The position numbers and the translations under genes are program-made. This document shows, in pieces, positions 3,999 through 5,774 of a stretch of 32,612 nt of DNA. The stretch is taken from positions 1 through 32,612 of the forward strand of contig JAQWDH010000009.1 of the NCBI GenBank assembly GCA_028705565.1. The letters run 5' to 3'. Origin of the DNA: Patescibacteria group bacterium. Lineage in GTDB: Bacteria > Patescibacteriota > Patescibacteriia > Magasanikbacterales > GWA2-37-8. The stretch's first letter is position 1, and every line of letters begins with the position of its first letter. The notes under the pieces were generated by a model. It did no database searches and had not been told where the DNA came from. It was given only the letters and a program-made list of their open reading frames with translations.

Positions 3999-5774
3999 AT
4001 GAATTTTTTAAGCGCGGAAGTCGTTTCTTTGTTAAAATCCGTAGGAGTCGGCGGAGAAATTGAATTTACAAAACCGCCAAAGGCGGAGATGGGCGATTTG
4101 GCGTTCGCGTGTTTTAATATCGCGAAAGAACGTAAAATGTCGCCAGTTGAAGCCGCTAAAGAACTGGAATTAAAAATCAAAGAAACGAGCGAAAACACCA
4201 TTATTGACGACGCAAAAGCGGTCGGTCCTTATTTGAATTTTTATTTTAATCCTCAAAAAATCGCTGAAAAAGTTTTAACGGAAATAAAAAAGGCCGATAA
4301 GAAATTCGGCTGTTGCGAAATCGGTAAAAACAAAAAAATATTGATTGAATTCGCGCATCCGAATACGCATAAAATGTTTCATATCGGGCATTTACGAAAC
4401 ATCATAACCGGAGAAACTGTTTCGCGAATTTTGGATAATGCCGGTTTTAAAGTAAAAAGAGTTAATTATCAAGGCGATGTTGGAATGCACATCGCGAAAT
4501 GTTTGTATGGCATTTCGCGAATTCAAAACTCCCCACCAGTGGCAGGTCCGCCGCTTTTGGCGGAAAAATTCAAAACTCCCAGCCGGAGGCATGTCCGCCT
4601 TTGGCGGAAAGATTTAAAATCAATTGAAGAAAAAATGAAATTTTTGGGGCAGGCGTACGCGGCCGGAAGCAAGGCGTTTGATGAAAACGAAGAAGCGAAA
4701 AAAGAAATTATTGAGTTAAACGAAAAAATTTATTCCGGCGATAAAGCGATAAAAAAACTTTATCAAGAAACGAGAAAATGGAGTTTGAAATATTTTGACA
4801 AGATTTACAAAAGGGTGAACACAAAATTTGACCGTTTATATTTTGAATCGGAAACTTTCAAACGCGGAAAAGAAATCGTTTTGGAATTTTTAAAAAAAGG
4901 AATTTTTAAGGAAAGCGACGGCGCGATTATTTTTGAGGGTTCAAAATACGGTTTGCACGACCGCGTATTCGTGAACGGCAAAGGTTTTCCGACATACGAA
5001 GCCAAGGACTTGGCTTTGGCGGAACTGCAATTCAAGGAAAACGGGCCGGACAAGATTTTTCATGTCGTGGCTAAAGAGCAATCCGAATATTTTAAAGTGA
5101 TGTTCAAGGCGCTTGAATTTACTTTGCCGAAAAGCAAAGACAAAGAAAAGCATTTGGTTTACGGTTGGGTTAGTTTGAAAGAAGGCAAAATGAGTTCGCG
5201 CTCAGGACAGGTGGTTTTGGGCGAATGGCTTTTGGACGAGGCGGAAAAAAAGATTTTTACCATAATAAAAGACAGGGAAATAAAAAATAAAGAGGCGGTC
5301 GTAAAAAAAATAGCTCTCGCGGCCGTTAAATACTCAATGCTTAAAACCGGAGTTGGCAATGATATGATTTTTGACATTAACGAATCAATAAGTTTGACCG
5401 GAGACAGCGGACCGTATCTTTTGTATATTTGCGCGCGCGTAAAAAGCATTTTGAAAAAAAGCGGAAAAAATAAAACCGGAAAAATCATAGCGCCGAACAA
5501 AATTGAATTGGCTGAAAAAAAATTGCTTTTAAGTTTGGCTCGGTTTCCGGAAGCCGCGGCCGAAGCCGCGGCGGACGATTCTTGCGATCCGTCAAAAATA
5601 GCCAAATATCTTTTTGAGTTGGCGCGGGAGTTCAATGATTTTTATCAAGAATGTCAGGTATTAAAAGCGGAAAAAGAAATTCAAGCTTTTCGTTTATCGC
5701 TTATAAAATCAGTTGGAGAAACAATGGCAAAAGGGTTGAATCTTTTAGGCATTGAAACCGTTGAAGAGATGTAA
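3999..5774 (+). CDS. argS: Arginine--tRNA ligase (carries an in-frame repeat insertion)
   Basis: FAHPNTHKMFHIGHLRNIITGE, VNYQGDVGMHIAKCL, EGKMSSRSGQVV and a C-terminal DALR-type helical domain. Confidence 0.95.
   Translation: MNFLSAEVVSLLKSVGVGGEIEFTKPPKAEMGDLAFACFNIAKERKMSPVEAAKELELKIKETSENTIIDDAKAVGPYLNFYFNPQKIAEKVLTEIKKADKKFGCCEIGKNKKILIEFAHPNTHKMFHIGHLRNIITGETVSRILDNAGFKVKRVNYQGDVGMHIAKCLYGISRIQNSPPVAGPPLLAEKFKTPSRRHVRLWRKDLKSIEEKMKFLGQAYAAGSKAFDENEEAKKEIIELNEKIYSGDKAIKKLYQETRKWSLKYFDKIYKRVNTKFDRLYFESETFKRGKEIVLEFLKKGIFKESDGAIIFEGSKYGLHDRVFVNGKGFPTYEAKDLALAELQFKENGPDKIFHVVAKEQSEYFKVMFKALEFTLPKSKDKEKHLVYGWVSLKEGKMSSRSGQVVLGEWLLDEAEKKIFTIIKDREIKNKEAVVKKIALAAVKYSMLKTGVGNDMIFDINESISLTGDSGPYLLYICARVKSILKKSGKNKTGKIIAPNKIELAEKKLLLSLARFPEAAAEAAADDSCDPSKIAKYLFELAREFNDFYQECQVLKAEKEIQAFRLSLIKSVGETMAKGLNLLGIETVEEM
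4520..4609 (+). repeat. Two tandem palindromic repeat units inserted in frame in argS
   Basis: Exact 14-bp direct repeat AATTCAAAACTCCC at 4520-4533 and 4567-4580. Each is followed by a TCCGCC-(loop)-GGCGGA inverted repeat (4547-4564 and 4594-4608). Confidence 0.85.

Follow-up and report, generated by a model that had tools for sequence, protein, structure and literature searches.

An in-frame doublet of palindromic repeats inside the essential arginyl-tRNA synthetase gene (argS) of a Patescibacteria genome is, on the evidence below, likely a decayed and duplicated representative of a broad family of palindromes in this phylum that are compatible with translation. We judge it probable that a short, selfish palindromic element spreading in Patescibacteria gave rise to the argS segment, which would consist of two copies of it in tandem. 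The doublet lies in the window, by which we mean the whole 32,612-nt stretch of DNA that was analyzed. A sequence-only reading of the window had proposed a coding palindrome resembling the Rickettsia palindromic elements (RPEs), in a CPR-like genome. The genome does belong to Patescibacteria, and the likeness to RPEs is supported as to behavior; the TCCGCC-GGCGGA palindrome on which the proposal was based is only half of the usual 30-nt unit. The features are as follows.

3999..5774, + strand: argS, arginyl-tRNA synthetase, the insertion's host gene; a 591-aa open reading frame (ORF) matched by NCBIfam TIGR00456 (E 1.1e-114, cut-off passed).
4520..4608, + strand: the insertion doublet, about residues 174-204 (IQNSPPVAGPPLLAEKFKTPSRRHVRLWRK); absent from 29 aligned relatives and marked by its AlphaFold2 pLDDT.
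4520..4533, + strand: A+T-rich arm and 14-bp direct repeat, copy 1, from repeat comparison; a similar arm lies beside the ppsA copy of genome G010 (locus L094).
4532..4564, - strand: unit 1, likely a decayed copy of the 30-nt double hairpin, 33 nt long with a first loop of 6 nt, in reverse orientation; from the sequence and the consensus.
4547..4564, + strand: the unit 1 hairpin TCCGCC-GCTTTT-GGCGGA, from motif search.
4567..4580, + strand: A+T-rich arm and 14-bp direct repeat, copy 2, from repeat comparison.
4579..4608, - strand: unit 2, likely a 30-nt double-hairpin element with three mismatches to the consensus, in reverse orientation; from the sequence, the consensus and DNA-level matches (83-91%) elsewhere in the order.
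4594..4608, + strand: the unit 2 hairpin TCCGCC-TTT-GGCGGA, from motif search.

The two units repeat with a period of 47 nt and 85% identity over 33 nt, and the exact 14-bp repeat in their arms reads AATTCAAAACTCCC. Unit 1 is more decayed than unit 2 and has three extra loop bases. Neither unit fits the strict element pattern given below (at least three mismatches each); their family membership rests on similarity. Both are translated in frame within the single argS ORF, unit 1 as PPxAGPPLAE and unit 2 as xxRLVRLxRK, between the VNYQGDVGMHIAKCL and FLGQAYAAGSKAF blocks; this is a reading of the sequence, without transcript or protein data. The earlier claims of two units about 47 bp apart, sharing an exact 14-bp repeat and each containing TCCGCC-loop-GGCGGA, and of their in-frame translation within argS are therefore both upheld. 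Across the 32.6-kb window, TCCGCC-loop-GGCGGA occurs at these two sites only; dinucleotide shuffles give an expectation of 0.03, and not one of 100 contained as many as two such palindromes. Another palindrome-like sequence in argS, CCGCCAAAGGCGG at 4074-4091, was considered and rejected; it is native to the gene and encodes the conserved PPxxEMGD motif.

We compared the loop that holds the doublet with its counterparts in 29 aligned relatives. It is 44 residues long here, versus 20-22 residues in the closest relatives (about 60% identity), and its length varies among the relatives. On the strength of this difference, we regard the segment as a probable addition in this lineage. The strain-specificity of the ArgS copy rests on no same-genus comparison: no ArgS from the same genus was found among the 37 genomes searched, and the closest named match, from a Magasanikbacteria metagenome-assembled genome, is 58% identical by tblastn and about 61% identical in the protein alignment, where no relative exceeds 61%. 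Conservation of the segment in all orthologues would have refuted an insertion; the segment is absent from the relatives, so this refutation is not met. The added length, first put at about 30 aa, holds only in part. The repeat itself spans about 30 aa, but the closest relatives already have a loop of 20-22 residues there, which leaves a net excess of about 22 aa.

The AlphaFold2 model of ArgS has a mean pLDDT of 91.4, and its sole stretch below 50, residues 180-199, is inside the insert. The insert lies between helices 163-175 and 209-229, and the remaining enzyme folds confidently. In this predicted structure, the insert adds a segment without confident structure. In another genome of the order, G004, the same ArgS loop holds an inserted palindrome of a different kind, CTGCCTGCCGGCAGGCAG, which is read as LPAGRQ; the loop therefore accepts such elements.

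A DNA search with the doublet across 86 genomes of the order matched unit 2 at 83-91% in eight genomes beyond the window's own (nine of 86 when the window genome is counted too), and the related units in those eight have E values of 6e-7 or better. The matches are mostly in-gene and in frame, in ppsA, three tsaD genes, pgk, uvrB and an O-antigen-ligase-like gene; the peptide of the ppsA copy, IQKSPPKAGPPLAEK, is nearly identical to the ArgS peptide IQNSPPVAGPPLLAEK. These matches bear on a first rival explanation, that the segment is an ordinary variable loop of the enzyme that became palindromic by drift and tandem duplication, with no mobile element involved. The differing loop lengths among relatives speak for it. 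Against it stand the 83-91% matches of unit 2 to elements in other genomes, including the same peptide frame in ppsA, the two palindromes in the window versus 0.03 expected, and the different palindrome family in the same ArgS loop of G004. We consider the variable-loop explanation very unlikely and retain the dispersed element as the preferred reading.

The element is a 30-nt double hairpin, TCCGCC-NNN-GGCGGA-CC(A/C)GCC-NNN-GGC(T/G)GG, in which two 6-bp hairpins abut. Its consensus over 84 copies is TCCGCC (A/C)NA GGCGGA CC(A/C)GCC TN(G/T) GGC(T/G)GG, preceded by TT and followed by (A/G/C)A. Among 50 distinct elements, positions 17 and 27, which were left free in the search pattern, covary above every shuffle: 24 have an A-T pair there and 24 a C-G pair. 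Partial complementarity between the two loops also allows the 30-mer to fold into one long hairpin. Of the order's 86 genomes, 25 contain the strict pattern, at 85 sites in total, and a sample of 380 genomes from across the phylum gave matches in 34; with the reversed pattern as control, both searches returned zero. The genomes searched are mostly metagenome assemblies.

Within the window genome itself (931 kb, 98% complete), TCCGCC-N-GGCGGA occurs at 24 places versus one for the reversed pattern. Most of these single hairpins are intergenic or located just upstream of start codons or near Shine-Dalgarno sites, so that the motif count in this genome alone is misleading. The argS doublet is its only clear in-gene insertion; radA has an SARGG peptide from one hairpin, but that linker varies in all relatives.

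By our reading of the site listings, about 33 of the 85 order-level sites are in-gene, nearly all in housekeeping genes. A lack of other copies would have counted against the family, and these sites remove that objection. NCBIfam profiles match both sides of the insert, either spanning or flanking it, in tsaD (3), recG (4), gatA (2), ligA (2) and valS (2), and also in pcrA/uvrD, miaA, secA, pgk, phosphoglucose/phosphomannose isomerase, epmA, pyrG, uvrB, trmD, pheT, aspS, aroB and ksgA. In the wider phylum, two further genomes have the tsaD insertion at the same site, and dnaK, ruvC, valS and cca were identified as host genes by eye. The element is present in host genes in all six frames.

We compared host genes with their congeneric orthologues, which lack the element. 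In ligA, valS, uvrB and recG there is a clean gain of exactly 30 nt; in pheT, trmD and secA a few codons are replaced rather than cleanly gained. The valS insertion splits a Tyr codon, yet both the frame and the Tyr codon stay intact. Partial tRNA genes that adjoin intact tRNA genes also carry the exact 30-nt element (locus L148, 1501-1527; loci L138, L163 and L164, at about 1501). At L148, GGGCGTTTAGCTCAGTT followed by the 30 nt and GGTTAGA adjoins the intact GGGCGTTTAGCTCAGTTGGTTAGAGC, and L138 and L163 have the same filled and empty arrangement at AGTT^CAATGG. The element is in the D-loop of these tRNA fragments, and one L163 fragment has a second copy in its T-loop. Neither target-site duplication nor target loss was found at the cleanly comparable pairs (the tRNA fragments, ligA, valS, uvrB and recG). 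The element is dispersed and absent from orthologous congener sites, and wherever the comparison is clean its gain amounts to exactly 30 nt, with the target neither duplicated nor lost.

Assembly or binning artefacts are a second rival explanation. The assemblies are metagenome-derived, and repeats can misassemble. Against an artefact, similar insertions, always open in frame, are found in many independent genomes, some of them in few contigs (G042, G012 and G071), and the steps relative to orthologues are exactly 30 nt. An artefact is all but excluded, and we continue with genuine insertion.

Some sites were occupied more than once. In recG, four genomes carry the element at one and the same codon and in one orientation, and a RecG tree built without the insert places them in four separate clades; G079 has the element where its sister G078 does not. 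Three of the four same-site cases have altered codons after the insert in common; local transfer of the recG segment consequently cannot be excluded as opposed to repeated insertion. The tsaD gene is likewise recurrently occupied at the same codon in several separate lineages, and gatA is also entered recurrently at one codon. Together, presence and absence among congeners, exact boundaries and same-site hits point to gain and not merely to loss.

Several observations concern the same loci and genomes. The RecG ORF of G079 (L128) apparently has a GxxExxY-family protein (NCBIfam TIGR04256) inserted in frame at residues 243-357, and the RecG proteins of G077 and G072 are long and of similar size. 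In the window genome there are two RecG-like genes (C31:67775-69778 and C24:6039-8069) and two RadA-like genes (C31:63952-64998 and C24:9662-10702); a foreign contig in the bin is possible, with both pairs split between C31 and C24 (reported contamination 2.95%). Downstream of the 23S gene of this genome (L043, about 1700-2000; contig C36:69500-73000), a truncated 5S gene terminates in the element, with a complete 5S gene after it, and just upstream one palindrome is nested in another's loop. In pgk and aroB of G071 (L123 and L178), a GATATTAAGATATTGG repeat precedes the element, which suggests composite insertions. The tsaD gene of G004 (L105) has, after about residue 245, a further in-frame insert, SVILSETKDPL...LRFAQNDK, that resembles the intergenic repeat GTCATYCTGAGCGAAG.

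We then asked whether the inserts are translated. The element is nearly stop-free in every frame, and its 30 nt equal ten codons. Among forward-orientation insertions, 19 of 22 are at phase 0, which gives the peptide SAKGGPASGW, compared with an expectation of 38-41% based on the codon phases of TT-type target sites in those genes, a control for target preference (P 4e-6 to 1e-5). Among reverse-orientation insertions, 9 of 11 are in the favored phase (P 0.001-0.05). The same-site cases are not independent in these statistics. The favored frames give Gly/Ala/Ser-rich peptides, and the codon-phase bias suggests, as the likely reading in the absence of transcript or protein data, selection on the encoded peptide. 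In an AlphaFold2 model of RecG, the insert (residues 563-572) is predicted to be a low-confidence coil or loop between a strand and a helix.

A third rival explanation holds that the insert is not translated, either because it is cut out of the mRNA or because the ribosome skips it. The hairpin 'byp' elements of some yeast mitochondria provide a model for ribosome skipping. The presence of GC-rich hairpins in essential genes and the near-exact insertion boundaries are in its favor. However, as indirect evidence, removal would not yield the observed codon-phase bias in either orientation, and of the 41 sites lying outside long ORFs, not one interrupts a gene out of frame. The length changes of host proteins also all preserve the frame, although this is weak evidence of translation because 30 nt is a multiple of three. 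We find removal or bypass unlikely and prefer translation of the insert.

We propose that an insertion landing in a surface loop would be read as a flexible linker rich in Gly, Ala and Ser (or Pro and Arg) and be tolerated, as its length of ten codons and near absence of stops in every frame would allow. Tolerance in loops may then let the element survive even inside essential genes. The ArgS doublet, with its 33-nt and 30-nt units, A+T-rich arms and a different frame for each unit, would be one insertion that was later duplicated.

This proposal of mobility is made without an identified copying or integrating agent. One candidate is a RAYT (Y1) transposase; in this fourth rival explanation, it would move the element as a REP-type repeat. 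Short palindromes, some of them in repair genes as with REPs (PMC3733652), are consistent with it, and Y1_Tnp is somewhat commoner where the element is present (14 of 25 genomes versus 17 of 61 others, Fisher P 0.025). However, the consensus has no GTAG or CGTC tag, 11 of the 25 element-bearing genomes have no detectable Y1_Tnp, including the copy-rich G008, G012 (f1) and G085, and the window genome has one weak Y1 match (25 bits). With Y1_Tnp undetected in those 11 genomes, RAYT as the mobilizer is not supported and appears unlikely. A bolder reading, which we offer only as a possibility, is that the element targets loops of structured RNA or single-stranded DNA when it moves, given its exact entry without target duplication into tRNA D-loops and a T-loop and the recurrent codons in recG, tsaD and gatA. 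It would then be a class of transposase-independent coding mobile element and a source of new protein loops across Patescibacteria.

Other palindromes were also observed in these genomes. A second family, TGCCTRCCGGYAGGCA, is present in 42 of the 86 genomes of the order (reversed pattern zero), with 10 copies in the window genome, and is often in frame as LPAGRQ or LPTGRQ, as in the ArgS of G004 (L066), a RecG and a HisRS-like protein (further loci L293 and L190). In the window genome, single 15-nt hairpins, TCCGCCNNNGGCGGA, lie directly upstream of the Shine-Dalgarno sequences of about ten genes (for example L006, L011, L013, L019 and L020, at 1501). Several have a common A+T-rich leader (AACAAAATTTATATTTA), possibly a shared 5′ leader.

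Extra peptides of this kind can mislead the annotation, structure prediction and phylogeny of Patescibacteria proteins. With this family, two questions become testable: the way in which palindromic elements lacking a known transposase insert, and the way in which proteins gain new loops.

We found no earlier account of coding palindromes in Patescibacteria in the literature searched, which left out most subscription papers; in the titles and abstracts of Patescibacteria and CPR papers, 'palindromic' mostly refers to CRISPR or has unrelated senses. MITEs (PMC10969869) resemble the element in being small, non-autonomous palindromes with the ability to form in-frame fusions with genes. They differ in having terminal inverted repeats and, as a rule, target-site duplications; duplication of the target was not found for the element, and no parent transposon is known. 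The GC clusters of yeast mitochondria are, like the element, very short GC-rich hairpins that are thought to be mobile by an unclear mechanism, of similar size and base composition, and the Allomyces double-hairpin elements (cited in PMC4478555) have two adjacent hairpins, as here. The criteria for mitochondrial double hairpins, namely adjacent hairpins and presence or absence between relatives, are met as to form only, with no common ancestry implied. The mitochondrial elements are organellar, and the putative AG or ACT target duplications of the yeast clusters (GC42; PMC4478555) have no counterpart in the Patescibacteria element. Intragenic REPs with GTAG or CGTC tags are sometimes found in replication and repair genes and occasionally at about the same site, as in recB of Xanthomonas (PMC3733652). 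The element shares with them short in-gene palindromes and same-site occurrence, but has neither tag and no consistent RAYT (Y1) gene in the genomes that bear it.

The closest parallel in behavior is with RPEs, which are in-frame palindromes in unrelated Rickettsia genes (RPE-1, RPE-4, RPE-6 and others; Ogata et al. 2000, 2002, per PMC10969869 and PMC3733652). In both cases the palindromes are dispersed, lie in frame in unrelated housekeeping genes, encode extra segments and occur as single and grouped copies; CGTC-tagged RPEs likewise have no known transposase. The differences are in form and setting. RPEs are about 150 bp long or short and CGTC-tagged, whereas the element here is a 30-nt double hairpin in another phylum, gained as exactly 30 nt without target duplication and found at the same codon in separate lineages. 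The short RPEs (RPE-4 and RPE-6) are CGTC-tagged and REPs are GTAG-tagged (PMC3733652); neither terminal tag is present in the consensus of 84 copies, in which TT precedes and (A/G/C)A follows the 30-mer. The element works like RPEs but is not shown to be one; the resemblance is of behavior, and no sequence homology is established. Protein-coding palindromes of the Rickettsia type have a counterpart in an unrelated phylum, an independent family whose copies are in frame in genes for tRNA synthetases, DNA repair, translation and replication, have exact boundaries and recur at the same sites.
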